Shown: piece by piece, positions 25,337-44,868 of the stretch
Position numbering within the stretch: the first letter of the stretch is position 1
Layout: every line of letters begins with the position of its first letter
NCBI GenBank assembly: GCA_017445925.1
Contig: JAFSRW010000058.1
Coordinates: 38,863 to 102,862 of the forward strand
Source: Bacteroidaceae bacterium
Lineage (GTDB): Bacteria; Bacteroidota; Bacteroidia; Bacteroidales; Bacteroidaceae
DNA length: 64,000 nucleotides
Reading direction: 5' to 3'
Position numbers and translations under genes: made by a program
Notes under the pieces: model-generated
Databases searched by the model: none
Seen by the model: only the letters and a program-made list of their open reading frames with translations
Told to the model about the DNA's origin: nothing

Positions 25337-26635
25337 TTATCGCTTAAACTGGATGGTGAAGCGGGTCAGGTGATCGTTGGGGTCGGTGAGGAGACTGAAG
25401 GTGCAGCCGTGAGCCGTCAGAATGTCGCGGATGAGCAGCAGACCTAACCCCTGACCTTGCGGCTTGGTGGAGTAGAAGGGGGTAAAGAGGTTCTGGGCCA
25501 CTTCGGGTGAGATGCCATGGCCATTGTCTGTGATGGTGAGAAGCCCCCCTCCATCTCCCCCCGAGGAGGGAGAGTATTGCGTGGTGATAGTAATAGTTCC
25601 ATTATTTTGAATCGTATGTTTTCCCCCATTATGGGAAGGGATAGAGGTGGGTCTGATACTCTCCACACTATTCTTCACAATATTGATGAGGACCTGCTGG
25701 AAGAGGACGGTGTCCAAGCGGACGGGGGTAGCTTCTTCGGTTAGGTTGAACTCTAAGCGGACATTTGCCGCTGTGCAGAGGCTCTCCAAGAAGGGACGGC
25801 AGGCATCCACCTCTTCGCTGAGGTCGCATAGCTGTAGCTGCGGCTGCGGTATCTTCACCACTTGGGCAAATCTGGTCACAAATGCAGAGAGGGCTTTTAA
25901 GCGTTCGCTCGCGTCTGCTGCTTCTTTATGAATTATGAATTGTGAATTATGAATTTGCCCAACGATTCCTGCCACGCTGTTGTTCACCTCGTGGGCTATC
26001 ATGCGGATGACGCGTTCGTAGGCGGCTTTCTCGGCACGACGAACCTCATCGGTAAGGGATTCAATGAGGTAGAAGGGATGCTGGAAACCGCGGTCGGGGA
26101 AGGAGAGGTAGTTGATGCGGAACAGTTGCGGCTCACCGGGCAGACGGATGGTGGTTTCCTGACCGAGGGGCAGTTTGCGCATGGCTTCCTCTACGGAGGG
26201 TGACATCATCTGCTTGGCGGCGGGGTTCATGGAGGTGATGTTTCCGTCTATATCGCATTGCACGATGCCCATAGGCGAGGCGTTGATAAGCAGGCTCAGG
26301 AAGGTGTATTGCTCTTCCAGCGAGAGGTGTTCGCTGCGCAGGCGAACCAGCAGGTCGTTAAAGGCCTGAACTATGATGTCCGTCTCGGGCTGACCCGTGG
26401 GTGACAGGCGTGTTGTCAGATCCAAATCCCTCACCAGTTCAATGCCGCTGACCAGGGTGTCGTAGGGGCGCAGTGTTTTCTGGTAGAAGAGCCATAGGTA
26501 TAGTATCAGCAGTACCACAAAGCCCTCCGTAACATAGAACAGCCGGGGGTGGCTGTGGAATGTGCCGTAGAGGGTAATGGCCATCAATGCTAATATACCC
26601 AGTGCGAGAATAAAGAAGTAATACTTTAGTTTCAA
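25337..26635 (-). CDS. sensor histidine kinase with three repeat-encoded insertions
   Basis: A 432-residue kinase: two transmembrane helices at the N-terminus (about 5-50), HAMP-like and PAS regions (about 60-200), H-box with phospho-His in MIAHEVNNS (about 215), N-box INIVKNSVES (about 322), and G-boxes DNGHGI and GQGLGLLL. The output is the NtrC-type regulator encoded upstream. Three insertions come from dispersed repeats: QIHNSQFIIHK (family B) beside the H-box, SIPSHNGGKHT and YSPSSGGDGGG (family A) between N- and G-boxes. All keep the reading frame and lie in loops. Confidence 0.92.
   Translation of the reverse strand: MKLKYYFFILALGILALMAITLYGTFHSHPRLFYVTEGFVVLLILYLWLFYQKTLRPYDTLVSGIELVRDLDLTTRLSPTGQPETDIIVQAFNDLLVRLRSEHLSLEEQYTFLSLLINASPMGIVQCDIDGNITSMNPAAKQMMSPSVEEAMRKLPLGQETTIRLPGEPQLFRINYLSFPDRGFQHPFYLIESLTDEVRRAEKAAYERVIRMIAHEVNNSVAGIVGQIHNSQFIIHKEAADASERLKALSAFVTRFAQVVKIPQPQLQLCDLSEEVDACRPFLESLCTAANVRLEFNLTEEATPVRLDTVLFQQVLINIVKNSVESIRPTSIPSHNGGKHTIQNNGTITITTQYSPSSGGDGGGLLTITDNGHGISPEVAQNLFTPFYSTKPQGQGLGLLLIRDILTAHGCTFSLLTDPNDHLTRFTIQFKR
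25543..25655. repeat. two family A repeats in histidine kinase
   Basis: Palindrome-centred GC-rich units at 25543-25574 and 25604-25655 encode extra loops in the ATP-binding domain. A family B unit lies at 25924-25956 in the same gene. Confidence 0.75.
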
Positions 26636-26728
26636 TTTATTTTATCGGTTAGCGGTTAAAGGTTAGCGGTTAGCGAACACAATGCAGCATTCTTCACTCT
26701 TCACTCTTCACTCTTCCCTCCTCATTTT
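26636..26728. repeat. family B repeats between kinase and regulator genes
   Basis: Tandem short units of the GGTTAGC and TTCACTC types fill this 93-bp gap. No promoter or terminator is evident. Confidence 0.7.
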
Positions 26729-28123
26729 TTAAAGTCCGTGCTTCTCTCTCTTGCGGTAGAGGGCACCGCGGCTGATGCCTAACTCCTTGGCCACGAGTGT
26801 CAGGTTGCCGTTGTGCTTGGCAATGCTTGCTGCTATGGCGTTACGTTCGAGGGTAGAGAGTGAGGCCCCCTCTCCGCTCCCCCTTTGGGGGAGTACTTCA
26901 TTACTGGTGAGAACTTTATTCTGGAAGTCAGCAACCGTGAGCATATCTCCCTCCCTTAAGTTCTCCCCCAAAGGGGGAGCAGATAGGGGTCTTTCGTGCA
27001 TCAATACAGCCCTTTCCACCAGATTTTTCAGCTCGCGGATGTTGCCGGGGAAGGGGAGTGTCTGCAAAAATGCGATAGCATCGGCAGAGACGCTTACGGG
27101 TTGTATCTTATTGGTAGCACAAGCTGCCTGAACGAAGTGGTTCACCAGTAGGGGGATGTCCTCACGACGCTCGCGCAGGGGTGGCAGGTGCAGGTTGATA
27201 AGGTTGATGCGGAAGAAGAGGTCCTCCCTGAAGGTGTGCTCCTCCACCATCTGGCGCAGGTCGGCATTGGTGGCGCAAACCACACGCACATCGGTTCGGC
27301 GGGTGTGACTGTCACCCAGCACCTCGTAGGTCTGGTCTTGCAGCACGCGTAGCAGTTTCACCTGACTGGCCAACGAGAGTTCGCCAATCTCGTCCAGGAA
27401 GATGGTGCCGCCCTTTGCCAACTCGAAGCGACCCAAGCGGTCGGAAGTGGCATCGGTGAACGAACCTTTCTTATGGCCGAACATTTCGCTCTCGAACAGC
27501 GATGTGGAGATGCCGCCCAGATTCACCTTCACGAACGGCCCGTTGGCCCTGCGGCTCTGACGGTGAATGGCCTCGGCTATCAGTTCCTTACCTGTTCCGC
27601 TCTCACCCGTAATCAGTACCGGTGCATTGGTGGGGGCCACACGGCTGACTGTGCTTAACACATCCTTTAGGCAATTACCGATTATTCCAGACCCTCTCCA
27701 AACCTCTCCCTCTATGGGGAGGCTTTCTTTTATTCTCCCCTTAGAGGGGGAGTTAGAGAGGGTCTTTACCGTCTCTATCCTCTCCAGCAGCACGCCATTG
27801 TCCCAGGGCTTGGTGATGAAGTCGAAGGCTCCGGCACGCATACCTTGCACGGCCAGGTCGATGCTGCCCCAAGCCGTCATCAGGATACAAGGCAGGTCTG
27901 GGCGGAACACCTTTATCTGCTTCAGCAGCGTCAGGCCCTCAAAGCCATCAGTGCTGTTGCTGTAGTTCATATCCATCAGCACAAGCTCCACGGAGGGGGT
28001 TGTGCGGATAATCTGTATAGCGGCCTTGGGTTCCTCGGCCAGCGCCACCTCGTACTCGTTGCGCTCCAGAATGAGCTTCAGGGTGAGGCGTATGTTTTTA
28101 TCGTCGTCAACTACGAGAATCAT
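26729..28123 (-). CDS. NtrC-type sigma-54-dependent response regulator
   Basis: A 464-residue regulator started at ATG 28121-28123 (MILVVDDDKNIRL); the longer frame to 28237 runs through repeat DNA. The receiver domain has phospho-Asp in LVLMDMN (about 51). The AAA+ domain has Walker A (GESGTGKE), a sigma-54 contact loop GSFTDA in place of GAFTGA, Walker B (TIFLDEIGEL) and arginine-finger region. The C-terminal Fis-type HTH reads LVAKELGISRGALYRKR. Three family A repeats give insertions: in the receiver-AAA+ linker (about 135-160), and twice near the C-terminal linker. The likely target is the sigma-54 promoter at 44965-44979. Confidence 0.93.
   Translation of the reverse strand: MILVVDDDKNIRLTLKLILERNEYEVALAEEPKAAIQIIRTTPSVELVLMDMNYSNSTDGFEGLTLLKQIKVFRPDLPCILMTAWGSIDLAVQGMRAGAFDFITKPWDNGVLLERIETVKTLSNSPSKGRIKESLPIEGEVWRGSGIIGNCLKDVLSTVSRVAPTNAPVLITGESGTGKELIAEAIHRQSRRANGPFVKVNLGGISTSLFESEMFGHKKGSFTDATSDRLGRFELAKGGTIFLDEIGELSLASQVKLLRVLQDQTYEVLGDSHTRRTDVRVVCATNADLRQMVEEHTFREDLFFRINLINLHLPPLRERREDIPLLVNHFVQAACATNKIQPVSVSADAIAFLQTLPFPGNIRELKNLVERAVLMHERPLSAPPLGENLREGDMLTVADFQNKVLTSNEVLPQRGSGEGASLSTLERNAIAASIAKHNGNLTLVAKELGISRGALYRKREKHGL
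26863..26991. repeat. two family A repeats in NtrC-type gene
   Basis: Units at 26863-26893 and 26946-26991, in opposite orientations, encode LPQRGSGEGA and LSAPPLGENLREGD between the AAA+ and HTH domains. A double, head-to-head unit at 27690-27766 encodes the receiver-AAA+ linker insertion. Confidence 0.75.
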
Positions 28124-28184
28124 GGGTTGAAAGTTGAAAGTTGAAAATGGAAAGTTGAAAGCTGAAAATGGAAAGTTAGTACAT
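28124..28184. repeat. family B repeats upstream of NtrC-type gene
   Basis: Tandem GTTGAAA / GGAAAGTTGAAA units fill the gap between hipA and the regulator gene, reaching to its start codon. Confidence 0.7.
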
Positions 28185-29644: not shown

Positions 29645-29682
29645 ACTTCTATGTTTGAAATTGATTAAATATTATCAGTTGC

Positions 29683-29803: not shown

Positions 29804-31096
29804 CTACTCTTCTCTCAATGAGTCTGTAATTTCGCTTCGGCAGATGCGCCAGGCGGGGATGGCGGTGCCGAGGAGGACGGTACATAATATAAAAAGGTAC
29901 ACGCAGAGGGAGACGATGGGGAAGTGGGTTTCTATGCTGTCGAACCAGTAGTGAACAATAGGATTGTCATACATTCCTTTCTCGTAGAAATCTCCTGAAA
30001 TCAGGTACTGGAAATAGATGATGCAGCCTATGAGGACGCTGACTGTTGTGAGCACCCATGCCTCACGGATGAAACCCCAGAATACACTCCACTTGGTGGC
30101 TCCAAAGGCCCGTTTTACACCAGCCTCTTCCTTGCGCTGCCGCGTGTACATTATCAGCGTACCGAATACGCCAAGCGCCAGATTGATGGCAAAGAAGACG
30201 GCAACAAGCACGTTCCTGTGCATAAGACGACCATCACGCCTTCCAGTATAGAAATCCAGTTTTTCGTGGACTGACTCTATCTTGCGGATGTAGCAATGTT
30301 CTGTCGTGAGGCTTTGCTGCCACTCGTGCTCGCATTTCTCCCTGAACTGCTCCGGGCTGACACCTTCACGCAGACGGACAATGATGGGCATATTGGTCAT
30401 AGAGCTCCCCATTGTGGAACAGATGTATGAGTTTGTATGGCTTCTGTCCACCCAGTAAAGGCGCACATCCTCAACAACAGCACGGATGTGGTATTCTATA
30501 AATTCGTCTCGCGCCACATAATATAATTTAATCGTACGTCCTGCCACATTGGTTGTGCCGAAAGCTGCCATTGCAAAGGTACGCGAAATGATAATGGTTC
30601 TGTCCTCCTCGCAGTCATTTGTCAATTCACTGGTAGGCACCTCTGGTGTCAGCGACTGAATGCCGTATGCTTTGAATATAGGGGATTCGCTTTGGAAATA
30701 GATGGTCGGGAATCGGATCCAAGTGCTGTCTCCTATCTGGCAATGTACTAAATACGAATCAAAGCCTGGAGCGTAATAGACGGTACGAAAGGCTACCTCC
30801 ACATCTTCTACCTCCTGAACTTTCTGGAGCAGCATTTCTTCCTCAGATGAGATTTCTTCTTTTCTGTTCATCCGTTCTGTATTGTTCAGGGTGCTTGCCA
30901 CTTCCATCCTTACTATTCTGTCAGGATCGTAACCTAACGGGAGATTCCAGATGTACGCGTTCAGCAATACAGGGTTGAATGTCCACCAGCAGATGATGGT
31001 AACGAGGATGAGTTCCAAAGCGAGCCAAGAAGCCCCCCTCCCGACCACCCCCCGCGGAGGGAGGAGTGTTATGAATGATAGTTTATTCGTTTTCAT
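29804..31096 (-). CDS. FtsX/MacB-type ABC permease (pair 4, second)
   Basis: A 430-residue permease: N-terminal TM (about 25-45), a long extracytoplasmic MacB-like domain (about 55-270) and three C-terminal TMs (about 285-310, 335-360, 390-415). It has the FtsX motif TRQRKEEAGVKRAFGATKW. The N-terminus is MKTNKLSFITLLPPRGVVGRGA; its LLPPRG segment is repeat-encoded and it is nearly identical to the start of the permease at 42037. It lacks an ATPase domain and must use the ATPase at 41029. It pairs with the upstream permease at 31164. Confidence 0.9.
   Translation of the reverse strand: MKTNKLSFITLLPPRGVVGRGASWLALELILVTIICWWTFNPVLLNAYIWNLPLGYDPDRIVRMEVASTLNNTERMNRKEEISSEEEMLLQKVQEVEDVEVAFRTVYYAPGFDSYLVHCQIGDSTWIRFPTIYFQSESPIFKAYGIQSLTPEVPTSELTNDCEEDRTIIISRTFAMAAFGTTNVAGRTIKLYYVARDEFIEYHIRAVVEDVRLYWVDRSHTNSYICSTMGSSMTNMPIIVRLREGVSPEQFREKCEHEWQQSLTTEHCYIRKIESVHEKLDFYTGRRDGRLMHRNVLVAVFFAINLALGVFGTLIMYTRQRKEEAGVKRAFGATKWSVFWGFIREAWVLTTVSVLIGCIIYFQYLISGDFYEKGMYDNPIVHYWFDSIETHFPIVSLCVYLFILCTVLLGTAIPAWRICRSEITDSLREE
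31030..31067. repeat. family A repeat at permease N-terminus
   Basis: GC-rich palindromic unit in frame, encoding LPPRGVVGRGA just before TM1. A related copy fills the gap upstream (about 31121-31160). Confidence 0.75.
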
Positions 31097-31163
31097 TTCT
31101 TTTGATATTATATTTCTTGTTAGTCTCTCCTCCCTCCTCGGGGGGAGGTCGGGAGGGGGCTTT

Positions 31164-32495
31164 TCATTTCTTTATCATCATAGATTCAACAATCGGTTTT
31201 CTTAGGCTTAGCCATGCGGGCAGGGCTGCTGCCAGTAGGTTCAGTATGCAGCATATCAGCAAGCAGATAAGGAAGATAGCGGGGGCGAAGAACATTTCGC
31301 CTTGCAGGATAGGCACGCGGCCATTAAATGCGAAGAACATGTAGAATACCCAACTGCGCCAGAGATAGATTGCAGCCCACGCCAAGCAGAGCCCAATGAA
31401 GCCGCCAATGAGCGTTAGCGTCAGATTTTCCATCATCACCTGCCAAAGTAGTGTGCGACGTTTGGCTCCGAACGCCTTGCGGATAGCCATCTCAGGCAGG
31501 CGGCGCTCCATGCGGCTTACTACCATACCGCTCAGGTTAAGGGCAGGCACGAAGAGCAGCATAAAGATGGCAACCACCACGTACCACTCCCAGTTCTTCT
31601 GTGAGGCGTAAGTGTTGAACATCTCGGCTGTGCTACGCCATACATTATTATAATAGGAATCAAGATTATCTAGCATATCCAGGTCGTTCTCCTTGTGCGC
31701 AGCATTATAGCGTGCTTCCACCTCTCGCATCTCCTGCTTGAAGGCATCAAACTTGTTAGAGGCAACACTGAAGGAAAGTGACAACCCTTGTGTGTGATAG
31801 TTTATGCCTCGGTCTGAGAGCAGGCTGTCGGCAGAGTAGGGGAACCAGATATCTGCGCAGCATTTTTCTGCCAGAATGCTGGGTGTTTCCACCACGCCAC
31901 AGATATGGTAATCGCGGTTTTCCACACGGACGGTCTTACCTACACCTTTCTCTCCTTTGCCGAAGAGTTGTTCGCGGATTTCCTCTGTGATAACCACCAT
32001 ACGACGCTCGTTGTCGAAATCGTCCTGCGTGAAAGGTGCTCCCTCGGTGAAGTGGAACTGGAAGAAACGGAAATAGTTGGGCTCTGTCAACTTGAATACT
32101 ATGGAACGATCGTGTATCCCGTCGGCCAGTTTCATGTACCAATCGCCCAGCATCCATGTGGAGACTTCAGCCGCTACACACTCTGGTGTTTTCATTTTCA
32201 GGAACACGTCGCGGAACATCTCTTGTGTGATTTCAACTACAATAGGAACAGAATCGTTAGAGTTTTCTTTCCAATTTCGGTTGTCCATCCTTTCCAGATA
32301 GTACGTCTTGCTGCGGTTCACTTCCGGCGCTATGTCGGCAGTCTTCACGTAATACACCTCGGCAATGAGCATCGTGAAGGCAATGGCGAGGGCCGTGCCG
32401 CAGATGTACATAGCGGAGTACATGAGAGACCCTCCCCCGTCCCCTCCCTCTATGGAGGGGAGAGATAGATGTGATAGAAATTTGCTTTTGTTCAT
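31164..32495 (-). CDS. FtsX/MacB-type ABC permease (pair 4, first)
   Basis: A 443-residue permease with one N-terminal TM (about 30-50), a periplasmic domain and three C-terminal TMs. Typical first-of-pair motifs: EVNRSKTYYLERM after TM1 and SRMERRLPEMAIRKAFGAKRRT before the third TM. The repeat-encoded LPSIEGGDGGG lies at about residues 12-23. It lies 68 bp upstream of its partner and follows the membrane-fusion gene. No ATP-binding motif. Confidence 0.9.
   Translation of the reverse strand: MNKSKFLSHLSLPSIEGGDGGGSLMYSAMYICGTALAIAFTMLIAEVYYVKTADIAPEVNRSKTYYLERMDNRNWKENSNDSVPIVVEITQEMFRDVFLKMKTPECVAAEVSTWMLGDWYMKLADGIHDRSIVFKLTEPNYFRFFQFHFTEGAPFTQDDFDNERRMVVITEEIREQLFGKGEKGVGKTVRVENRDYHICGVVETPSILAEKCCADIWFPYSADSLLSDRGINYHTQGLSLSFSVASNKFDAFKQEMREVEARYNAAHKENDLDMLDNLDSYYNNVWRSTAEMFNTYASQKNWEWYVVVAIFMLLFVPALNLSGMVVSRMERRLPEMAIRKAFGAKRRTLLWQVMMENLTLTLIGGFIGLCLAWAAIYLWRSWVFYMFFAFNGRVPILQGEMFFAPAIFLICLLICCILNLLAAALPAWLSLRKPIVESMMIKK
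32427..32464. repeat. family A repeat at permease N-terminus
   Basis: Encodes SLPSIEGGDGGGSL in frame. Core palindrome CTCCCTCTATGGAGGGGAG. Confidence 0.75.
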
Positions 32496-32563
32496 ATTGT
32501 GTTTGTTATTTGTTAACCTAATATTATTTCAGCCCTCCCCCTCGGGGGAGTTGGAGAGGGGTC

Positions 32564-33928
32564 CTACTTTATCTTCAGTTTTTCTTTCCCTTTATACTTA
32601 CTCATATCACTGACCACCACCTGCTCGCCCTCTTCCAGGCCCTCGATAACTTCTATATAATCGTAGTTGCATTCGCCCAACTTCACCTGACGGGGGCGGA
32701 GTACTCCACTTCCATTTTTCTCTTTTAATTTTTCTCTTTTAATTACAAAGAGTGTATAATCCCCCGGGCCGCTGTAGAACGAGCCGTTGCGGATGCGCAT
32801 GACATCGTCCTTGATGCTGGTGATAACGAAGACTTCCGAGCGGAGACCAGAGCGAAGGCGCGGATGACTCATATCATCGGGCACAGCGGTGAAGGTGATG
32901 GCACCGCTCTGGCTGAGAGGCGTAACCGTGTTGATGGTGCCTGTTAGACGTTCCTTGCCAATCTTCAGCAGGACGGCACCACCTACACGGACGCGGTCGC
33001 TGTGTGTGTCTGAAATTTCGCATTCTGCCTTAAAGTGTCGGAGGTCGCTCACGATGGCAATCTTCTGTCCGGCACTCACGGTGCTGCCTATTTCTGTATT
33101 GATGTAAGTGAGTGTTGCGCGACGAGGCGAGCATATCTTGGCATCATCCAAAGTGCGACGCTTCTCGGCGAGACCTTTCTCGAAGATGCCGTTTTGCAGT
33201 TGCTGCATGCGCAGGTCGGCCTGCTTCACCTTCTTCTCGTTGGCGTACTGCTGGCGCAATTGGCTGAGCTGGAGCTGTGCCGTGCGCAGGGCCGTCTCTG
33301 CCTGCCGCACTCTGTCGCGCGTCCCGGAGCCAAGGCTGTCCAGATAAAGCTCGTTGCGGAGCTGCGCCTCCAACTGCGAGACCTTCATCTCTTCCACCTC
33401 AATCTGCATCTGTCGGTCGGAGAGCTGTGTTTCGGTGTTTGCCTTGAGTTGTGCCATCTGCTGGCGCTTTATCTCCCGCTCATCAAGGGCTTTGGCGTAG
33501 TCCGTCTCGGCCGACTGGAGATCCAGTCGGCACAGCGGCGTGCCTACATCCACGCTGTCGCCGCTGTGGGCATAGACCTCGAGGATGCGCGAACTGATGG
33601 GCGAGACGATGACCTCCTCGAAGGCCGGCACCACCTTACCCGTAGCCGAGACGCTGACATCTATCGTGCCACGGTCCACATCCGAGATGACGAGTGCTTT
33701 CTTGTCCAATGTCGGAATCATCTGCGTGCCGAGCCATGCAGCAAGGCCCATTACCACCACGAAGCCGCCAATCCACATGCCGGCTCTCTTCATCTTGCGT
33801 TTGCGTTGTTCGCTGACAGGAATGGCCCTATCCATAGAAGACCCACCCCTAACCCCTCCCTCTATGGAGGGGAACGATTGGTTCCGTGTTTTTGTGTTCA
33901 TATTATTTGCTATCTCTTCATTTACCAA
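32564..33928 (-). CDS. HlyD/MacA-type membrane-fusion protein
   Basis: A 454-residue periplasmic adaptor with one N-terminal TM (about 45-65), a barrel-sandwich/lipoyl half motif (GKVVPAFEEVIVSPISSRI), a long coiled-coil hairpin (about 130-245), the second lipoyl half (AKICSPRRATLTYINTEIGS) and a beta-barrel region. It should link the inner-membrane permeases to the TolC-like protein. Repeats add SFPSIEGGVRGGS at the N-terminus (about 18-32) and KREKLKEKN near the C-terminal part. It is 40 bp downstream of the TolC-like gene. Confidence 0.92.
   Translation of the reverse strand: MVNEEIANNMNTKTRNQSFPSIEGGVRGGSSMDRAIPVSEQRKRKMKRAGMWIGGFVVVMGLAAWLGTQMIPTLDKKALVISDVDRGTIDVSVSATGKVVPAFEEVIVSPISSRILEVYAHSGDSVDVGTPLCRLDLQSAETDYAKALDEREIKRQQMAQLKANTETQLSDRQMQIEVEEMKVSQLEAQLRNELYLDSLGSGTRDRVRQAETALRTAQLQLSQLRQQYANEKKVKQADLRMQQLQNGIFEKGLAEKRRTLDDAKICSPRRATLTYINTEIGSTVSAGQKIAIVSDLRHFKAECEISDTHSDRVRVGGAVLLKIGKERLTGTINTVTPLSQSGAITFTAVPDDMSHPRLRSGLRSEVFVITSIKDDVMRIRNGSFYSGPGDYTLFVIKREKLKEKNGSGVLRPRQVKLGECNYDYIEVIEGLEEGEQVVVSDMSKYKGKEKLKIK
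32713..32743. repeat. family B-like repeat in membrane-fusion gene
   Basis: A duplicated TTTTTCTCTTTTAA unit, in frame, encodes VIKREKLKEKN. A family A copy lies at 33838-33872 in the same gene. Confidence 0.65.
33838..33872. repeat. family A repeat at membrane-fusion N-terminus
   Basis: In-frame unit encoding SFPSIEGGVRGGS, immediately before the TM segment region. Another family A copy fills the gap at about 33950-33980. Confidence 0.75.
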
Positions 33929-33968
33929 TTAATCATTTACCATTTGTGTTCTCCCCATAGAGGGGGAG

Positions 33969-35519
33969 TTAGAGGGGGTCTTTTACTAACTTCTCTATAT
34001 CTGCTGTTATGTCACATCCTTTCTCGAAGTCCCAAAGGGCGATGCTGCGCAGCTGGTAGTAATAGTACCAATAATAATGCAACTGCGCGATGCGGTTCTG
34101 CCTTGCCTCGTCCTTGGCCTTTGTAGCATCCGAGATATCCAACATGGAAATGCTGCCAATCTTGAAAGTCTCTATATTCGTATTGTAACGCTTCTGGGCA
34201 ATGGTGTCCGCTTCGCATGCGATGCGCAGTTGCTCAGCTTGGTTGTTGAACTGCTCCGTCAGGATGAAGATGTCCTGCCTGAACTCCTGTGCTTGTTGCC
34301 TGAGCTGACCTTGTACTATCTCGCGGTTGCTTTCCGCCATCTTGCGCTGTCCCTTGCGTTTGCCCCAGTCAAGGATGGGAATGGAGAAGCCCACCTGTAC
34401 CACTTCTTTGCTCAGCAGGTCGCGATAGGCACCGCTCAGATTCTCTGCCATTCCTGTATAGCCCAACTGCGCATACAGGTTGATGCTCCTGCGGTTGGCC
34501 TTTGCCGATGCCACATTGTAGTCAGCCTCCAACTGACGGCGCCGCATCGTCGTGGCAAGGGCATTATTCTCCAAGGCATGGGTCAGGACATCATCATAAG
34601 AAAGATGCAAAGCCCCCTCCCCGCTCCCCTTTTGGGGGAGTGCTGGCACTATTGGTTCAATCTCCGCCTCTACATCCAGGAACGATTGCAAGGCAAACTG
34701 GCGGGCCTGACGGTTGCTCTCGCTGTTTGTCAAGGAGCTGTGGGCGTTCAGCACATCCAGTTTCAGTTGCAGCACGTCATTCTCGCTGATGGTTCCCATC
34801 TCTCGTTTAGCCTGAGCCACCTTGTAGAGTTCCTCCGCCTTCTGCAGGTTTTGACGTGCAATGCCCACCTGCTCGCCTGCCAATATCAGATTGAAGAAGA
34901 GGTTGATGGCCTTCATAGCCACCCCTTCCGTTTCACTTAGGAAGCGTGCCTGAGCTTCGCGGTAACGCAAGGGTTCTATCCTGCGGTTCCACTTCTGGTG
35001 GTTCACACCGAAGATGGGTTGCGAAAGGGTCAGCGCTACGGGCATCGACATAAACTGGTTGCCGCCCCCTACGCCCGACTGATGCAGGAAGTCCAGCGAT
35101 GTTTCTACGGACAGTGTTCCACCCGTGGGCCATATCTTCTGGCTTATGTAGAGGGAGCCGTCCATACCTAAGTAATCATTGCGGACATACGACACGCCGC
35201 CGTCCGCCTGCTGGTAGCTGTTGTAGCGCTTGTTGTAGCTGGGTAATGTGGCAGAGAAGGACACCTCCGGCAACAGGTCAGCCTTGTAGCTGCGCCATTG
35301 CCAGTAGGCAGATTTCAGTTCACCCAAATCCACTGCAGCATCCACACTCTGCTTACGTGCCAAAGCGATACAGTCGGAAAGGGACAAAGTAAGAGCCCCC
35401 TCCCCGCTCCCCCTTTGGGGGAGTGCTTTTGTGCTGATTGCTATCGGCAGTAAAGAAAGCAGAAGCAACAATCTTTTCACTCCCCCAAAGGGGGAGAAGG
35501 AGGGGGCTAGCTTATTCAT
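33969..35519 (-). CDS. TolC-like outer-membrane efflux protein
   Basis: A 516-residue TolC/OEP family protein. A signal peptide region (about 10-34) is followed by two repeated OEP domains (about 45-265 and 290-500) with typical helical segments (LNAHSSLTNSESNRQARQFA; FRQDIFILTEQFNNQAEQLR). It forms the outer-membrane duct of the export complex. Three family A repeats are in frame: SFSPFGGVK within the signal region, LPQRGSGEGAL at the mature start, and LPQKGSGEGAL between the two OEP halves. The start overlaps the end of the upstream permease by 8 bp. Confidence 0.92.
   Translation of the reverse strand: MNKLAPSFSPFGGVKRLLLLLSLLPIAISTKALPQRGSGEGALTLSLSDCIALARKQSVDAAVDLGELKSAYWQWRSYKADLLPEVSFSATLPSYNKRYNSYQQADGGVSYVRNDYLGMDGSLYISQKIWPTGGTLSVETSLDFLHQSGVGGGNQFMSMPVALTLSQPIFGVNHQKWNRRIEPLRYREAQARFLSETEGVAMKAINLFFNLILAGEQVGIARQNLQKAEELYKVAQAKREMGTISENDVLQLKLDVLNAHSSLTNSESNRQARQFALQSFLDVEAEIEPIVPALPQKGSGEGALHLSYDDVLTHALENNALATTMRRRQLEADYNVASAKANRRSINLYAQLGYTGMAENLSGAYRDLLSKEVVQVGFSIPILDWGKRKGQRKMAESNREIVQGQLRQQAQEFRQDIFILTEQFNNQAEQLRIACEADTIAQKRYNTNIETFKIGSISMLDISDATKAKDEARQNRIAQLHYYWYYYYQLRSIALWDFEKGCDITADIEKLVKDPL
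34611..34641. repeat. family A repeat in TolC-like gene (middle)
   Basis: Encodes LPQKGSGEGAL between the two OEP halves. Core CTCCCC with CAAAAGGGGAG symmetry. Confidence 0.75.
35393..35509. repeat. two family A repeats in TolC-like gene (N-terminus)
   Basis: 35393-35423 encodes LPQRGSGEGAL and 35479-35509 encodes APSFSPFGGVK. They flank the hydrophobic signal segment. Confidence 0.75.
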
Positions 35520-36810: not shown

Positions 36811-38183
36811 CTTTTCTGATTTAGTGATTCAACAATTGGATTATTCAGCGAACGCCACGCAGGGATGAGTGCAGCCATCAAGTTGAGCACTACACAACAG
36901 AGGAAGCAAATCAGGAACAGCTTAGGCGTGAAAAACATGGCAAACTCCATTCCAGCATCCGTGATAGCATTGGCTTGTCTTTCCGTTTGGTTTTGGAATA
37001 ATACTGTCATGAACACCGTACTGTTACGGAGAATATTGACAAAGAACCACGAGATTACCCACCCTACGGCTCCGCCACAGAGTGTCAGTACCAGATTCTC
37101 GTTAATGACCTCACGCAGCAACGTGCTACGTTTGGCACCAAAGGCCTTGCGAATACCCATTTCCGGAAGACGTGACTCCATGCGGTTACTGACAAGGCCA
37201 CTCAGATTGATAGCGGGCAGCAAGAGAAAAATCAGTATCAAAAGGGTTATTGGAATATAAAAGATTGTTTTGACTACTGCATCTGATCCCCCTTCTCCTA
37301 ATCTGAATTGTTGAAAGAAGTTGCTTCGTGCACTCAATTCACATTCTATATTCTCGCCAGTTTGAATATTAATCTGGTTGCAATAAAATTTAAACAGCGG
37401 TTCTGCTTCGTTTAGGAAATCCTGACGCGTATAACCCTCACGAAGAAGAATACGTGTAGTAAGAGATCCGGCATAGGTGACCATTGGCAACATGCTATTG
37501 TGTTCTATATACTCCTGCCTGGACGGTTCTGACGTGTAAGGATAAAATATATCTGCCACAGCATTTTCCGATAGGGTACATACCGGCTTGATAATACCCA
37601 CCACATGATATAGATTGAGCGTTCCTCCGTTTTCTTTTATTTGCAGCTTCTTTGCCACATTTTCCGTAACAACACAAACACGTTCACCGTTTCTGAACTC
37701 CTTTTCCGAGAATGGCCGTCCATCAACAAATGTAAAGTCATATAGGCGGAAAAATTCATGATCGCACCATTTTGCGGCAACGTAACAGGGGTTCTCCCCC
37801 TTCGGATAAATAGATTGACTTGTATTGTAGAATCCTGTAGCTAATTCAACGCTTCTCATTTTTCTAAAACAGGAGTCAAGGGCTAAGGTGGAGAATTCTG
37901 TATAGATTGATCTTACATTCTCACTCTTAAATCTCATGTTTAGATACAGCGTCCGGCTGCGGTTCACCTCTGGCTTAATGTCAGTCAGTTTTATGTTCAA
38001 CACTATCACAACCACCATAGCCGAGGCAATGGCAACAGCTGTGCCCGCAATATAGATGGTGGAGAACAGCTTGTCGGCACGGATGAGTGCAAAGGCGTGA
38101 GCAAAGCCCCCTCCGGCTCCCCCTTTGGGGGAGTGAAAAGTAAGGGAGAAGAAGCTACTCAGTTTTGTAAATATCCTATTCAT
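36807..38183 (-). CDS. FtsX/MacB-type ABC permease (pair 3, first)
   Basis: A 458-residue permease. The repeat-encoded FHSPKGGAGGGF (about 17-28) lies before FALIRADKLFSTIYIAGTAV, the start of TM1. The extracytoplasmic domain follows EVNRSRTLYL. The C-terminal TMs are preceded by SNRMESRLPEMGIRKAFGAK. It ends with VESLNQKR, as does the permease at 39553. It is coupled to the downstream partner and depends on the shared ATPase. Confidence 0.9.
   Translation of the reverse strand: MNRIFTKLSSFFSLTFHSPKGGAGGGFAHAFALIRADKLFSTIYIAGTAVAIASAMVVVIVLNIKLTDIKPEVNRSRTLYLNMRFKSENVRSIYTEFSTLALDSCFRKMRSVELATGFYNTSQSIYPKGENPCYVAAKWCDHEFFRLYDFTFVDGRPFSEKEFRNGERVCVVTENVAKKLQIKENGGTLNLYHVVGIIKPVCTLSENAVADIFYPYTSEPSRQEYIEHNSMLPMVTYAGSLTTRILLREGYTRQDFLNEAEPLFKFYCNQINIQTGENIECELSARSNFFQQFRLGEGGSDAVVKTIFYIPITLLILIFLLLPAINLSGLVSNRMESRLPEMGIRKAFGAKRSTLLREVINENLVLTLCGGAVGWVISWFFVNILRNSTVFMTVLFQNQTERQANAITDAGMEFAMFFTPKLFLICFLCCVVLNLMAALIPAWRSLNNPIVESLNQKR
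38104..38133. repeat. family A repeat at permease N-terminus
   Basis: Encodes HSPKGGAGGGF in frame. A further copy lies in the intergenic gap at 38208-38240. Confidence 0.75.
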
Positions 38184-39556: not shown

Positions 39557-40977
39557 CTCTTTTGATTTAACGATTCAACGATAGGGTTCTTTAGCGACCT
39601 CCATGCAGGGATGAGTGCCACCATGAGGTTAAGCACGGCACAGCATAGGAAAACGACAAGGAAAAGGGTCGGCGTGACGAACATCTGATAGTTGAGGCTA
39701 TAGACCTTCATGGCATTCATTGTATCCAAGTCATTAGTTCCCATGAAAATTAATTGGAATACGCCATTGTAGCGTAACGCAGAGACGAAAAGCCAAGAGA
39801 GCACCCAGCCCACCAGGCCGCCACAGAGCGTCAGTACCAGATTCTCAAAGATGACTTCACGGAGTAGCGTTCTGCGCTTGGCTCCGAAGGCCTTGCGGAT
39901 GCCCATCTCTGCACGGCGTGCTTCCATGCGGTTACTAACCAGTCCGCTCAGGTTGATGGCAGGCAGGAAGAGGAATAGCAGCATCAGGATTACTGGCGGT
40001 AGGAGGTTCATGGCTTTATAGGTTGTGTCATCATAGACGTCCAATGCGCCAAAGAAAGTTATTTTCTTGAGCCAGTGTGACTTCACCTTCGGTGTCCAAG
40101 ATACCGATTCACCAACCTGCGTACTCGTTATAGCCTCGTACTGTGTTCGTATTGGTTCGAATTCCTCCAAGAAATCTTTCCGCGAATAACCTTTTTTCAG
40201 AATGATACGAGCTTCGAGGTTGCCGGCATAGGAGATGTCGTAGGACGTCTCCAATTTGCCATCGGGTCTATACCCAAGGCATTCCGCTGTGTAGGGGGCA
40301 AAGATGTCCGCTGCGGATTCCTGCATCAGGAAACTTGGCGACTTGATGATGCCTACCACGCGGAACGGAACTTTGTTTATGAGGATAGACTGTTCTCCTT
40401 CTGGCTTCTCTAAAGGGAAGAGTCCTAACTGATTAGCCACCCTATCCGTTATCACGCAGACGTGTTCACCGTCGCGGAATTCTTTCTCAGAGAATCGACG
40501 TCCAGTTACGAATCTATAGTCGTAGAGGCGGAAGAGTTCGGTATCGCTACCCATTATGGTGAGAGACTTGATGGTTCTACGTGCTTCCATGTCGGAAGCG
40601 GAGATAGTCCAGTGCTCTCCAGGAGGGATGACAGGTGCGACGAACTCCACGCACTTCATCCGACGGAAGCAGGAATCGATGGCCTCGGTAGAACTATTCT
40701 CCAGGTGCCGTTCTTCACCGTGTGATTCTTTATAGAATGTGTTTGTGAGGTACAGTGTCCGGCTGCGGTTCACCTCGGGAGCGATGTCTGCCAGCAGAAT
40801 GTTCAGCACGATGGCCACCACCATAGCCGAGGCAATGGCAACCGCCGTTCCCGCAATGTAAATTCCGGAGAACAACTTGTCAGCACGGATGAGGGCGAAG
40901 GCGTGGCAGACCCACCCCCAACCCCCTCCCTCTATGGAGGGGAGCCATTTGCGTAAAATGTTCGTTATATTTTTCAT
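39553..40977 (-). CDS. FtsX/MacB-type ABC permease (pair 2, first)
   Basis: A 474-residue permease. The N-terminus has the repeat-encoded LPSIEGGGWGWV (about 14-25) before FALIRADKLFSGIYIAGTAV. The rest matches the first-of-pair type: EVNRSRTLYL, an extracytoplasmic domain, SNRMEARRAEMGIRKAFGAKRRT and three C-terminal TMs. It lies 51 bp downstream of the ATPase gene, with a family A repeat in the gap. Confidence 0.9.
   Translation of the reverse strand: MKNITNILRKWLPSIEGGGWGWVCHAFALIRADKLFSGIYIAGTAVAIASAMVVAIVLNILLADIAPEVNRSRTLYLTNTFYKESHGEERHLENSSTEAIDSCFRRMKCVEFVAPVIPPGEHWTISASDMEARRTIKSLTIMGSDTELFRLYDYRFVTGRRFSEKEFRDGEHVCVITDRVANQLGLFPLEKPEGEQSILINKVPFRVVGIIKSPSFLMQESAADIFAPYTAECLGYRPDGKLETSYDISYAGNLEARIILKKGYSRKDFLEEFEPIRTQYEAITSTQVGESVSWTPKVKSHWLKKITFFGALDVYDDTTYKAMNLLPPVILMLLFLFLPAINLSGLVSNRMEARRAEMGIRKAFGAKRRTLLREVIFENLVLTLCGGLVGWVLSWLFVSALRYNGVFQLIFMGTNDLDTMNAMKVYSLNYQMFVTPTLFLVVFLCCAVLNLMVALIPAWRSLKNPIVESLNQKR
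40909..40944. repeat. family A repeat at permease N-terminus
   Basis: Encodes LPSIEGGGWGWV in frame; core CTCCCTCTATGGAGGGGAG. An intergenic copy lies at about 40991-41028. Confidence 0.75.
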
Positions 40978-41028
40978 CTTCTGTGATTGTTTCTCCCCTC
41001 CTTAGAGGGAGGGGATGGGGGAGGGTCT

Positions 41029-41787
41029 TTACTGTATTTGTCTTCCATCGAGGAACTTGATGATGCGGTCTGTCTGCTGTGCTTGTTGCTCGTTGTGTGT
41101 TACCATTACGATGGTGCGTCCATCCTCGCGGTTCAGCTTGTGCAGCAGTTCCATAATCTCGGCACCCATCTTCGAGTCCAGGTTACCTGTCGGCTCGTCG
41201 GCAAGGAGTATCTCGGGGTTGCCGATGATGGCGCGAGCGATGGCGACACGCTGACACTGACCGCCGGAGAGCTGAGTGGGACGATGCTTCATGCGATGCG
41301 AGAGGCCAACGCGCTCGATGACTTCCTTTGCCAGGCGCAGACGCTCGCCGCTGCGCACGCCGCGATAGATGAGCGGTATCTGCACGTTGTCCAGTACGTT
41401 GAGCGTTGAGATGAGATGAAAGCTCTGGAACACGAAGCCCAGCGTCTTGTTGCGAATCTCCGCCATCTTGTTGTCGGAGAGCTTCGGGTCAATCTTCGTG
41501 CCGCAGAGTTCGATGGTGCCGCTCGTGGGCTCGTCCAAGAGGCCCATGATATTCAGCAACGTTGACTTGCCGCAACCGGAAGGTCCCATGATGCTCAGGA
41601 ACTCGCCCTTCTGCACTTCCAGGTTCACGTTTTCCAACGCCTGTGTCTCCACTTCGTCAGTACGATAGATTTTGTTGATCTCAGTCAGTTTAATTACGGC
41701 CTCACCCCGGCCCTCTCCCGTGGGAGAGGGAGTAGATTGTGATTGACTTGGTTGATTCTGATTGAATACTTTTTCTTCTGTGTTCAT
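41029..41787 (-). CDS. MacB/LolD-type ABC transporter ATPase
   Basis: A 252-residue ATPase: Walker A GPSGCGKST, Q-loop FQSFHLI, signature LSGGQCQRVAIARA, Walker B ILLADEPTG and the H-loop VTHNE. It is the only ATPase in the cluster and presumably powers all four permease pairs, as the separate ATP-binding subunit of MacB-like transporters. Its first 30 residues include the repeat-encoded STPSPTGEGRGEAV ahead of the true domain start (VIKLTEINKIYRTDEVETQA). It lies in the middle of the permease genes. Confidence 0.93.
   Translation of the reverse strand: MNTEEKVFNQNQPSQSQSTPSPTGEGRGEAVIKLTEINKIYRTDEVETQALENVNLEVQKGEFLSIMGPSGCGKSTLLNIMGLLDEPTSGTIELCGTKIDPKLSDNKMAEIRNKTLGFVFQSFHLISTLNVLDNVQIPLIYRGVRSGERLRLAKEVIERVGLSHRMKHRPTQLSGGQCQRVAIARAIIGNPEILLADEPTGNLDSKMGAEIMELLHKLNREDGRTIVMVTHNEQQAQQTDRIIKFLDGRQIQ
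41701..41731. repeat. family A repeat at ATPase N-terminus
   Basis: Core CTCTCCCGTGGGAGAGG; encodes PSPTGEGRGEA in frame ahead of the first strand. Confidence 0.75.
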
Positions 41788-41819: not shown

Positions 41820-42036
41820 TGATTAGAAGTTAAAGAAGTTAGAGAAGTTATCGGCCTTTCGGCCTGAGAAGTTAAAGACGATAGTTTTACACGTGCTTCA
41901 GTAACTTTCACTCTTCACTCTTCACTCCCCCTAAAGGGCGACTAGGGTCTTTAGAGTAGCCACTGAATGTGGCTGCGGCCCCACAAAGGGGAGCGAATCC
42001 CCATTCGCGACGGAGGGACCCGAAGGGATGGGGGTT
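41820..42036. repeat. mixed repeats between ATPase and permease
   Basis: Tandem GAAGTTA units, a TCGGCCTTTCGGCC hairpin, TTCACTC units and GC-rich palindromes fill this gap. No sigma-54 element is seen here. Confidence 0.6.
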
Positions 42037-43398
42037 CTACTCTTCCCTTATTGCATCTGTTATTTTCGTATTAATTATCTTTATTGCCGGTATGGCTGTT
42101 CCTATCAAGACAGTACATAATATAATAAGGTACACGATGCCGGACACGATGAGGAAGTGCGGCCAGAAGTGGTCGGGCCAAGTCTGGTCGGTAGGATTCT
42201 CGTAATGGCTGGTATTGTACATGGTCTCGAAGTGCTCCAATCCGAAGTGAGTTATATTAGAACCTTCGTTATACTCCAAGCCGCTGTAGGCGTAGTTCAG
42301 GTAGATGATGCAGCCGATAATGACAGCAACGGTTGCCATGAGCGCCCCTTCGGAGAGGAAACCCAGCAACAGACGCGGACGGGTAGCTCCGAAGGCTCGG
42401 CGCACACCACATTCCTCGGTGCGGCGCTTGGCTTGCAGCCAGACGGTACCGATGATGGCGAGGCTGAGGTTTACCAGGAAGAAAAGTGCCAGCATCAGGC
42501 TGCGATTTACCTCCTGCGTATTGCCTTCCCTCAGTTCTGATTGTTTGATGTAATCCTTGAAGGTCATCAGTTTGCTGATGCGGCAGAACTCCGTATCACC
42601 CTTTGATATGAGCTCTTGTCCGTGCTCCTCGACGAAGCGTCCTGGGTGGATGCCCTTCTTTAGTCGGATGACGACGTCCGCATCGGTAAGGAAGTTAGTG
42701 TATGGGAAGAAGATGATGGTGCGTATGTCGCGGGCTAAGGACAGGCGGAAGTCTTCCACGACGCCCATGACGGTAGCGTCGATCCACTCCATTGGACGCC
42801 CTGTATCTGGTTGACCATAATGTTGGAAGTGGCGGCCTACCACATCGTCCGTACCAAAGAGTGTAAGGGCAGCTTTTCGGGTCAGAACGGCCTTGTCAGG
42901 CTTACCTTTTTTCATTATCTTAGAGAGTTCCTCTGCCGACGGACTTCCAGGCATTGGCCGTAAGCCGTAGGTTTCAAAGAATCTGGCATTACTCGCAAAG
43001 CAAACCTCTGTTATCCAGATGGTATCCTTCTCGTTGCTGACCGTGTGGTAGGATGGACTGTTTTCGCCAATTACCGTACCGTTTCGATTGTAAATATATG
43101 CACTCTCTACGCCCTCCATCGATTCCAACTGGCGGAGGAACTGCATTTGGCGTTCCTCAGTCATATTAATGACAGATTCATCGGCATCTGTCTTCGGCTT
43201 CGTTTTGGCATGGAGCAGTTGGTCTGCATCGTACATCATTGGCAAACTGCGGTAGTAGAGGTTCACCACAGCCGGGTCGATAACTACCCATGCCACAACG
43301 CTGATTACCACCAGTTCGAGGAAGAGCCAAATAGCCCCCCTCCCAACCTCCCCCCGGGGAGGGAGGAGATTTATGAATGATAGTTTATTCGTTTTCAT
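42037..43398 (-). CDS. FtsX/MacB-type ABC permease (pair 1, second)
   Basis: A 453-residue permease. N-terminus MKTNKLSFINLLPPRGEVGR with the family A repeat just before TM1 (about 25-45), nearly identical to the permease at 29804. It has the extracytoplasmic domain, QAKRRTEECGVRRAFGATRP, and three C-terminal TMs. It follows its partner by 66 bp. No ATP-binding motif. Confidence 0.9.
   Translation of the reverse strand: MKTNKLSFINLLPPRGEVGRGAIWLFLELVVISVVAWVVIDPAVVNLYYRSLPMMYDADQLLHAKTKPKTDADESVINMTEERQMQFLRQLESMEGVESAYIYNRNGTVIGENSPSYHTVSNEKDTIWITEVCFASNARFFETYGLRPMPGSPSAEELSKIMKKGKPDKAVLTRKAALTLFGTDDVVGRHFQHYGQPDTGRPMEWIDATVMGVVEDFRLSLARDIRTIIFFPYTNFLTDADVVIRLKKGIHPGRFVEEHGQELISKGDTEFCRISKLMTFKDYIKQSELREGNTQEVNRSLMLALFFLVNLSLAIIGTVWLQAKRRTEECGVRRAFGATRPRLLLGFLSEGALMATVAVIIGCIIYLNYAYSGLEYNEGSNITHFGLEHFETMYNTSHYENPTDQTWPDHFWPHFLIVSGIVYLIILCTVLIGTAIPAIKIINTKITDAIREE
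43334..43368. repeat. family A repeat at permease N-terminus
   Basis: Encodes LPPRGEVGRGA in frame; another copy fills the gap at about 43421-43461. Confidence 0.75.
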
Positions 43399-43464
43399 CT
43401 CTTTTGATGTTATATTTCTTGTTAGTCTCTCCTCCCTCCTCGGGGGGAGGTCGGGAGGGGGGCT

Positions 43465-44868
43465 CTATCTTTTCTCCATCATAGATTCAACAATAGGTTT
43501 TCTTAGGCTTAGCCATGCGGGAAGCAAGGCCGACAGCAGGTTCAGCACCACTACGGCGATGAAGCAGCCCACAAAGAGCAGCGGCGAAAAGAGCATTTCA
43601 CCCGTTACGATGGGGGCTGTGCTCATCATGTAGCTGTCGAAGAACAAGCTGAGAAGCTCCAAGCGGAAGCCGTAAATGGCAAGCCAAGAGATTACGAGGC
43701 CGATAATGCCGCCGATGCTGGTCAGCACCAGATTCTCCGTCACTACTTGCCAGAGCAAAGTGCTCCTGCGGGCACCAAAGGTCTTACGGATACCCATCTC
43801 TGCTGTGCGGCGCTCCATCCTGCCCGCCACAATGCCACAGAGGTTCAGGGCAGGTACGAAGAGCAGGACAAACAGCAAGCCGGCAAAGTGATAGATGAGT
43901 TGGCTGTTGGGGATTTTATTGTACCAGTCACCGCCGTTATTTCTGCGCAGGGTGTGCATCGGGTGCGTCTCCATGTCCTTTCCCAGCTCTACGTGCTTTT
44001 TTTCCATCTCCACACTGCTGGTGCTCCAGCCAAGAATCTCAGAAGAGTTGTTCGTCAGACGTGCCTCTATCTCGGCAAGTTCCTGCTTCAATGCCTTCAG
44101 GTGCTCAGTATCCTTCACAGTGGCAACGATAGAGAAATGGCCTGTGTAAGGGGAATTAATTTCGTATTTGTCTTCCCGAAGCGTGTAGGGTAGGAACAGG
44201 TCGGCATAGCTGTCGGGCGTTAGCTGGCTGCCGTTTCGCACTACGCCTGTCACACGTACGCTCAATCCGTTCTCCATGGTCACCATTTGCCCCTTTGCCT
44301 CCTTGTCCTTACCAAACAGACGCTCGGCAAGGGCTTCGCTGATGACGCAGACTTTCTCGCGAGCTTCTACCTGCTTCTTGGTGAATGGTCGTCCCTCTAT
44401 GAAGTCGTACTCATAAATCTTGAAGAAGTCGGCGCTTGTCCAGTTGAGGATAACCTCCATGTATTCGCCCTTCTTTGCGAGTACAAAACCTTGGCATTCC
44501 GAGGAGTACTTGCCCCTTCCGACGGCCAAGTTGGTAGGAGAGCAGTACTCTATGTTGGGGCTGGACATGAACCATTCCTCAAAAGCCTTCGAACCGAAAT
44601 ATGTCATACTTGCTCCACCTCCTTCTCCGTCATTCATCGTTATGATGCCATCGAAGTAAACCGTCCGCATCCTGTTCACCTCGGGATAAATGGGTGCCAG
44701 CTTGATGTAATACACCACCGCCATCACCATCGTGAAAGCAATGGCCATTGCCGTTCCTGCAATATGTATCGCAGAGAACAGCTTTTCTTCTCGCATCATG
44801 GAAAAAGCCCCCTTCCAACTCCCCCCAAGGGAGGGAGAGAAAGAACTATGTTTAAATATTCTACTCAT
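43465..44868 (-). CDS. FtsX/MacB-type ABC permease (pair 1, first gene of cluster)
   Basis: A 467-residue permease, the promoter-proximal gene. The repeat-encoded SFSPSLGGSWKGAF (about 8-22) lies before REEKLFSAIHIAGTAMAIAF (TM1). The extracytoplasmic domain follows EVNRMRTVYF, with AGRMERRTAEMGIRKTFGARRS before the three C-terminal TMs. It ends VESMMEKR, like the permease at 31164. It is preceded by the sigma-54 promoter at 44965-44979. Confidence 0.9.
   Translation of the reverse strand: MSRIFKHSSFSPSLGGSWKGAFSMMREEKLFSAIHIAGTAMAIAFTMVMAVVYYIKLAPIYPEVNRMRTVYFDGIITMNDGEGGGASMTYFGSKAFEEWFMSSPNIEYCSPTNLAVGRGKYSSECQGFVLAKKGEYMEVILNWTSADFFKIYEYDFIEGRPFTKKQVEAREKVCVISEALAERLFGKDKEAKGQMVTMENGLSVRVTGVVRNGSQLTPDSYADLFLPYTLREDKYEINSPYTGHFSIVATVKDTEHLKALKQELAEIEARLTNNSSEILGWSTSSVEMEKKHVELGKDMETHPMHTLRRNNGGDWYNKIPNSQLIYHFAGLLFVLLFVPALNLCGIVAGRMERRTAEMGIRKTFGARRSTLLWQVVTENLVLTSIGGIIGLVISWLAIYGFRLELLSLFFDSYMMSTAPIVTGEMLFSPLLFVGCFIAVVVLNLLSALLPAWLSLRKPIVESMMEKR
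44806..44838. repeat. family A repeat at permease N-terminus
   Basis: Encodes SPSLGGSWKGAF in frame. A separate family A copy lies in the leader at about 44905-44940. Confidence 0.75.

Follow-up and report, generated by a model that had tools for sequence, protein, structure and literature searches.

The DNA considered here, a stretch of 64,000 nt (the window), comes from a Bacteroidaceae bacterium (GCA_017445925.1, JAFSRW010000058.1, positions 38,863-102,862). Between positions 25,337 and 44,942 it holds a cluster of minus-strand genes encoding a histidine kinase, an NtrC-type sigma-54 activator, the FtsX/MacB-type permeases P1-P8, HlyD, OEP/TolC and an ABC ATPase. Units of a short palindromic repeat are found inside 11 open reading frames (ORFs) of this cluster, namely those of the HATPase_c kinase, the NtrC-type regulator, six FtsX/MacB-type permeases, HlyD, OEP/TolC and the ABC ATPase, and the frame is kept in each. 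A first-pass annotation had quoted palindromic cores in and between these genes with the frame kept, and they are indeed in the sequence. Pfam assignment was obtained for 8 of the 11 hosts (kinase, NtrC, P1, P2, P4, HlyD, TolC and ABC); P3 and P5-P8 are named by similarity.

The repeat unit of about 34 nt consists of a C-rich head (such as AGCCCCCTCCC or AGACCCxCCCC), a short link and a GC-rich hairpin (e.g. CTCCCCC-TTT-GGGGGAG). The strand carrying the head is taken as the strand of the unit, a rule that miscalls at least one unit (26,959-26,992, called +). A profile of 36 positions, built from 21 hand-collected units of the same genome and applied at a threshold of at least 12 bits, recovers the 21 founding units in the window (by construction) and a further 6 in 303 kb taken without selection from the rest of this genome; five first-order Markov resamplings of the scanned DNA gave 0 matches. 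A second detector, whose criterion is a headed GC-rich hairpin alone, finds 21 units in the window, 20 of which belong to the cluster, and 17 in the 303 kb; resampled DNA, 1.84 Mb in all, yields 3. A chance origin of the units is ruled out by the resampled-DNA counts of both detectors. In the five sources searched, no match to a known RNA family of Rfam reached the gathering score.

The genome of the window (3.3 Mb in 100 contigs, 84% complete) was sampled through the window, 20 unselected stretches and 40 hit-centred stretches, giving a set of 178 units. Relatives were represented by 73 loci encoding HlyD relatives, nearly all labelled as metagenome-assembled genomes (MAGs) or uncultured and largely from ruminants; individual loci bear L numbers. 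ORFs were picked at a minimum of 100 codons, longest first and with starts extended, and since no gene caller was applied, genes broken by a unit are unseen. Across the 178 units, 843 of 1,068 frame readings lack a stop, the host frame of the 114 intragenic units being open by definition. The C run of the head is mostly preceded by AGA, AAG or TCA. GTAG or CGTC is rarely near: GTAG/GGAG stands by the head in 15 of 175 units of this genome and 23 of 191 units of relatives, CGTC in 4 of 175 and 3 of 191.

Units present and absent at the same sites

Fifteen sites in 10 host proteins (P4 was left out) were surveyed with the hairpin detector in aligned relatives of at least 45% identity. Per site, a unit was detected in 1-15 loci and undetected in 18-53, and all 15 sites were mixed; among the undetected loci are degenerate copies, such as those of L005 and L008 in the n-region of TolC, and some paralogues in the case of the permeases. 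In DNA alignments the site between the TolC halves is a true gap in L003 and L005 (flanks 88-93% identical) and is filled in L067, L064 and L008, and the P6 site is a true gap in the same two loci. The net gain per insertion is about 6-15 residues by eye, which leaves the borders inexact. On a HlyD tree at least 5-7 state changes per site are required for six sites of 21-26 loci each; its input consisted of all filled loci, the window and only the 12 most similar unfilled loci per site.

Clean gaps in orthologues were what the first-pass annotation had proposed to look for, and they are found. Identical segments at identical places in distant genera, which it had named as the opposite outcome, do not appear: the sites of relatives are empty or, at some shared positions, hold other variants. 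The clean gaps rule out ancient protein sequence. That the segments were never inserted, being either ancient or an artefact of assembly, is scarcely credible; at least one relative also has a unit at every site, as such an explanation would have it, but shared positions often hold units of other subfamilies, and units occur in MAGs from several sets with different names (RUG, RGIG, RUI, UBA).

Inverted pairs, gene ends and translation starts

Neighbouring headed units no more than 150 nt apart obey a pairing rule. This genome has 34 '+-' pairs, 6 '++' or '--' and 0 '-+', and the relatives have 61, 8 and 0, so that 95 of the 109 pooled pairs are '+-' and none is opposite. In the '+-' arrangement the heads point outward and the hairpins inward, the C-rich unit coming first on either strand. 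Partners resemble each other: similarity is 0.494 vs 0.340 for non-partners in this genome (34 pairs; 0 of 10,000 permutations as high) and 0.713 (51) vs 0.399 (122) in relatives, where the loci are not all independent.

Compact pairs, with a spacer of no more than 35 nt, recur in unrelated genes. A pair in TolC of L006 resembles pairs in NtrC of L009 (90%), NtrC of L064 (89%) and the kinase of L064 (77%); two unlike subtypes follow in identical order, with pairwise likeness of 77-95%. To judge from these sequences, this recurrence is the best evidence that a pair may move whole. The compact pair in the NtrC gene of the window is 89% alike over 75 nt to one in the PPDK gene (L120) and 79% to one in a carboxylase gene, both of this genome.

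Other pairs were noted for their spacers. In the NtrC linker of L032 (12280-12480) and L056 (10761-10960), the same pair stands in opposite orientation with its spacer reverse-complemented (1 mismatch in 37 nt, by eye), the result of an inversion or of a second insertion and a possible invertible coding segment. Intergenic pairs in L103 (5276-5310) and L116 (4254-4290) have a common spacer motif, AACTGCT..CAGGGTCNTGGGCAGTT, with 12 exact matches in 9 of 61 genomes, 1-2 in each.

Of the 178 units, 114 lie inside ORFs, 60 are intergenic and 4 are at edges, at an ORF coverage of 90%. The N-terminus is a hot spot: 22 of the 114 intragenic units begin in codons 0-19, about 4 being expected for a mean host of 551 codons, and so do 34 of 161 in relatives. 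On the sense strand N-terminal units are G-rich rather than C-rich (21 vs 3 here, 42 vs 6 in relatives) and C-terminal units C-rich rather than G-rich (10 vs 1 and 5 vs 2), because the pairing rule demands such strands when a pair straddles a gene end. A start is bracketed by 13 of the 34 '+-' pairs here and 28 of the 61 in relatives (41 of 95 pooled), a stop by 4 and 1; the remaining pairs lie within one ORF (10 and 25), are intergenic (5 and 4) or extend over two ORFs (2 and 3). Among the 13 start brackets of this genome the inner unit begins between codons 6 and 22, and in 11 of them between codons 9 and 16. All four units of the NtrC gene fall between Pfam domains, and those of the kinase and of the RNB protein fall within a domain span.

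Eight units of the cluster are N-terminal. Those of P1, P4, P6, P7 and ABC are followed by no in-frame ATG within 20 codons, the alternative codons being TTG in P1 and P6 and GTG in P7 and ABC. P2, P8 and HlyD have an ATG 2-3 codons past the unit and could start there. In L003, L006, L024 and L048 the stop codon of P2 and the start codon of P1 overlap (ATGA); at this point the window has instead a unit, a leader, an ATG with about 10 codons and a second unit, and the old ATG reaches a stop 15 codons on, within the spacer. Read from the letters, the start of P1 has been replaced and the pair carries the replacement.

A module of about 130 nt is common to P1 and P7 in the window and in L004. Its 64-nt spacer is 95-98% identical between the paralogues and the two genomes, the P1 and P7 proteins being only 52-53% identical, and the module is present in 3 of 139 genus genomes. 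A second start region, with 78-99% likeness over alignments of 53-111 nt, precedes an FtsX-type permease in the window, L008 and L024, and TolC in L007, L009 and L017. Both its flanks vary between genomes: to its left lies the ABC gene in L008 and L024 and a P3/P5-type permease in the remaining genomes. What the TolC signal-peptide pair of the window surrounds is, by contrast, like host sequence, and in L067 both positions are occupied by another subfamily. Seven brackets of the window fold as long stems enclosing the start, with energies from -39 to -90 kcal/mol and z values from -1.9 to -12.2; the P8 bracket gives only a weak fold, equalled by 7 of 200 shuffles (z -1.9).

Positions 35507-38081 of the window and 5847-8421 of L004 (P3-P4) are 99.4% identical over 2,575 bp in genomes otherwise more diverged. 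The block, which ends beside window unit positions where L004 has no units, reflects recent exchange or a chimeric MAG. Near 8440-8520 L004 carries several copies of another palindromic family (GTCCG..CGGAC), in frame in the TolC signal-peptide region.

Table 1. Repeat units and partners in the cluster, in window coordinates (encoded peptides in brackets)
Feature	Position	Strand	Remarks
Histidine kinase loop 2, unit (QYSPSSGGDGGG)	25542..25574	+	profile, 20.3 bits; undetected in 23 of 31 aligned loci
Histidine kinase loop 1, degenerate partner (TSIPSHNGGKH)	25621..25654	-	by eye, unscored by profile
NtrC-type regulator, AAA-lid/HTH linker, unit (LPQRGSGEGA)	26864..26897	+	profile
NtrC AAA-lid/HTH linker, partner (APPLGENLREG)	26959..26992	-	profile; orientation rule miscalls as +
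NtrC receiver/AAA linker, compact pair (two units, short spacer)	27689..27765	.	89% over 75 nt to pair in PPDK gene (L120)
Permease P1, codons ~11-22, unit (LLPPRGVVGRGA)	31031..31066	+	profile
Partner upstream of P1 start	31127..31161	-	pair encloses leader, ATG, ~10 codons
Permease P2 N-terminus, unit (LPSIEGGDGGG)	32427..32464	+	profile; ATG 2 codons later
Partner upstream of P2 start	32531..32564	-	profile
HlyD N-terminus, unit (PSIEGGVRGG)	33839..33876	+	profile; undetected in 53 of 58 aligned loci
Partner upstream of HlyD start	33946..33981	-	profile
Between OEP/TolC halves, unit (VPALPQKGSGEGA)	34611..34644	+	empty in L003, L005; undetected in 47 of 57 loci
After TolC signal peptide, unit (ALPQRGSGEGA)	35394..35427	+	
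TolC signal-peptide n-region, partner (LAPSFSPFGGV)	35476..35508	-	profile
Permease P4 N-terminus, unit (HSPKGGAGGG)	38105..38137	+	profile
Partner upstream of P4	38207..38240	-	most of 77-nt spacer with start codon recurs before TolC in L007, L009, L017
Permease P6 N-terminus, unit (KWLPSIEGGGWGWVC)	40908..40946	+	clean gap in L003, L005 at LR/HAFAL
Partner upstream of P6 start	40991..41028	-	profile
ABC ATPase N-terminus, unit of another subfamily (TPSPTGEGRGE)	41701..41733	+	undetected in 24 of 37 loci
Permease P7 N-terminus, unit (LLPPRGEVGRGA)	43333..43368	+	profile
Partner upstream of P7	43429..43464	-	module near-identical to P1 module
Permease P8 N-terminus, unit (SPSLGGSWKGA)	44806..44839	+	profile; two ATGs downstream
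Partner of another subfamily upstream of P8 start	44906..44942	-	headed-hairpin detector

The two kinase units listed in Table 1 are separated by host-like GTITITT. The kinase also contains a second, AT-rich repeat (GAATTATGAATTGTGAATTATGAATT) in frame at 25929-25961 (IHNSQFIIHKEAA), which is absent from most of the 21 relatives shown; short-period repeats resembling it occur at 28126-28170, 48289 and 53073. Between the regulators and the transporter genes (28185-29645) lie two genes, by eye a HipA/HipB-type pair, with no headed unit detected. Elsewhere the window has 63-nt repeats (62350-63477) inside ORF 61914-63800, a TTAGTCGTTTGG tandem array (50686-50806) and 43-44-nt GTAACC repeats (16182-17204).

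Genome-wide spread and likeness to known repeats

The units of the cluster form a dense patch within a family that extends over the whole genome. A profile search of the whole genome, an approach also proposed in the first-pass annotation, gave at least 104 matches at E<=0.01 and at least 149 at E<=10; these are lower bounds, 150 of some 1,067 candidates having been scored. In the genus, matches at E<=0.01 occur in 22 of 31 genomes, this one included. With stricter filters and E<=1e-4, 12 of 121 genomes in the family (6 of 30 genera) and 1 of 148 in the phylum, namely this genome, have matches; the lineage model was built from units of this genome, so other subfamilies escape it. In the sampled DNA 82 ORFs contain units. 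Hosts outside the cluster include aconitase, RNB/RNase R, a queuosine-synthesis (QueA-like) protein, carbamoyl-phosphate synthase (CPSase), carboxylase, PPDK and glycosyltransferase families, and a Pfam family was found for all 30 cluster and host proteins scanned. In L110 (11874-14804) a single ORF combines domains of the CPSase small chain, GATase and the large chain, and a unit lies close to where they meet (aa 383); this may be a gene fusion made by the repeat.

REPINs are doublets of repetitive extragenic palindromes (REPs) that form hairpins (Bertels and Rainey 2011, PMC3116915). According to the accessible text of that paper they are short palindromic units arranged as inverted doublets with a spacer, with predicted long hairpins and a proposed role as the unit of spread. 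The inverted doublets of one palindromic unit are found here too, with alike partners. Extragenic placement is not: that text gives 14 of 1,067 16-mers overlapping genes in SBW25, whereas most units here lie in ORFs. The sequence also differs, and no linked Y1 transposase was found. The GTAG/CGTC-tagged REPs (Di Nocera 2013, PMC3733652) likewise combine a tag with a hairpin, form dimers with spacers mostly of 20-100 bp and are in part intragenic in several species. CGTC repeats are reported there also from Bacteroidetes, without a dedicated transposase, together with a warning that N-terminal REPs may reflect wrong start calls. The present units differ in rarely having the tag nearby and in being mostly intragenic, and start brackets are not described in the accessible part of that source.

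The Rickettsia palindromic elements are, in the portion of PMC2229807 available, predicted stem-loops inserted in frame in unrelated conserved genes (19 reading frames), and one host enzyme with such an insert is active. They are of 105-146 bp and belong to another phylum, in contrast to the facing 34-nt units described here, whose pairs often enclose host DNA; in-frame insertion in many conserved genes, with relatives lacking the unit, is common to both. The small miniature inverted-repeat transposable elements treated in the same text (Correia elements, 127-bp enterobacterial repeats) are also short and non-autonomous, with inverted repeats, open frames and fusion to genes; their sequences are other, and in the present family no target-site duplication was seen and no parental transposon is known.

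The first-pass annotation had proposed a protein-invading family analogous to the Rickettsia elements. For the effect the analogy holds, the sites being polymorphic throughout and near-identical compact pairs standing in unrelated genes. For the anatomy it does not, as REPs and REPINs are closer and what spreads looks like an inverted pair of units; the head, the inverted pairing and the bracketing of start codons were absent from that annotation, which did not see the cluster as part of a genome-wide family. The anatomy is thus REPIN-like and the effect like that of the Rickettsia elements, and membership in either family is not claimed, because extragenic placement fails and a linked REP-associated tyrosine transposase (RAYT) was not found. 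Among the matches listed, a literature search gave no paper describing palindromic repeats set in frame in genes of Prevotella or Bacteroidota, subscription papers lying mostly outside the search. The accessible parts of PMC8040213 (structured RNAs of human microbiomes) and PMC6006769 (Y1 nucleases) do not describe the family; the latter reports Bacteroidetes subclasses of Y1 nucleases flanked by atypical structures.

Mode of spread and its meaning

The units probably belong to a non-autonomous REPIN-like family spread through rumen Bacteroidaceae/Prevotellaceae genomes and tolerated in linkers, loops and N-termini because they are open in most frames. Two units face each other, and compact pairs recur in unrelated genes, where a candidate enzyme or recombination would have copied them; the changes at the sites are probably gains rather than losses. 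Wide pairs, with spacers up to 136 nt, mostly enclose sequence unshared with other pairs of the genome, be it a start region, a signal peptide or a short segment that is conserved. If its net length is divisible by three, an insertion would add its residues to a protein presumably translated in vivo and survive where it is tolerated; other insertions would presumably be purged, with purifying selection as the filter. Placed around a start, a pair could bring in a new leader, start codon and first codons, and start regions may pass from one neighbouring gene to another when the repeats recombine ectopically.

Several results weigh against such a REPIN-like family. No match to the Y1 transposase PF01797 occurs in this genome, which is 84% complete, or in 4 of the 7 other genus genomes with at least 30 unit matches, all 8 being incomplete (62-92%). 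No target-site duplication was seen by eye in the DNA alignments and compact pairs, the loops being too variable for exact borders. The state changes on the HlyD tree do not separate gain from loss. The spacer of the window and PPDK pairs is so short that two similar units could have arrived separately, and wide-pair spacers are mostly unique in this genome, only a few resembling each other, so that the wide pairs did not recently move in one piece. The intragenic counts rest on a start-extending ORF picker, and some N-terminal units may precede the true start. The second start region occurs in 7 of 139 genus genomes with one copy each. Confidence in the REPIN-like reading is held down because the window/PPDK example is weak and the tree is blind to gain versus loss.

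As to the mobiliser, PF01797 is present in 54 of 151 family genomes, and among the 31 genus genomes 8 match at E<=0.001, 5 of them over the cut-off. The 14 Y1 loci of relatives (L134-L147, some of them weak matches) are not flanked by these units, headed hairpins being found only in L137 (>1 kb away) and L147 (about 400 nt away). Classical RAYT mobilisation finds no support, and the suggestion of the first-pass annotation that the family may still be mobile was not borne out, no mobiliser having been found. In L142, L143 and L144, the three whose flanks were printed, the Y1 genes are flanked by other palindromes (e.g. GCCCTGAAAGGGC, and CCCAGGGC..GCCCTGGG in L143 and L144), which form with them a separate REP/RAYT set. 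Phage carriage is not supported by a search of viral contigs, in which one 30-letter pattern with 2 free positions matched 0 stretches; the search is weak, since one variant was queried.

Transposition could be dispensed with if a few old insertions had been spread, replaced and lost by homologous or ectopic recombination (gene conversion, interspecies exchange), the repeats being recombination seams. This is possible, though the less favoured course. The missing Y1 transposase agrees with it, as do the P1/P7 spacer conserved between diverged proteins, the reshuffling of start modules among neighbouring genes, the other subfamily of L067 at both TolC positions and the nearly identical L004 block ending beside units that L004 lacks. 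Gene conversion, however, depends on homologous flanks, whereas the near-identical compact pairs stand in genes unrelated to each other, and several presence changes per site are seen on the HlyD tree. A role of the pairs as RNA devices, which fold the start into the loop of a long stem and insulate or regulate initiation of genes within an operon, is rather unlikely. The folds of the seven brackets, the excess of start over stop brackets and the resemblance of partners would fit it, but many pairs lie wholly inside one ORF, the unit is absent in most relatives at most sites, a long complementary pair folds well anywhere and the P8 bracket barely beats its shuffles.

It is possible, though less likely than not, that the wide pairs are mobile translation-start modules, in which a leader, start codon and first 10-16 codons would be swapped between gene junctions, cutting off the native start and giving unrelated proteins a new N-terminus and an initiation region within a long RNA stem. 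A start module dispersed genome-wide is ruled out by the single copies of the second start region, and local recombination is therefore likelier than transposition there. We lean towards a REPIN-like element that was mobile in its compact form, the wide pairs having been reshaped by recombination.

If the REPIN-like reading is true, odd low-complexity peptides in proteins predicted for this group, LPQRGSGEGA, LTPNPSPVGEG and HSPKGGAGGG among them, may be repeats that are translated, and call for caution. The rumen lineage would then harbour a REPIN-like family at home chiefly within genes, where it remodels time and again the linkers, loops and N-termini of conserved proteins, among them regulators and core enzymes. 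It would provide a natural catalogue of tolerated in-frame insertion sites and a case in which to seek the mobiliser of an orphan REP family. It would also show one way for selfish DNA to give rise to new protein segments and translation starts.

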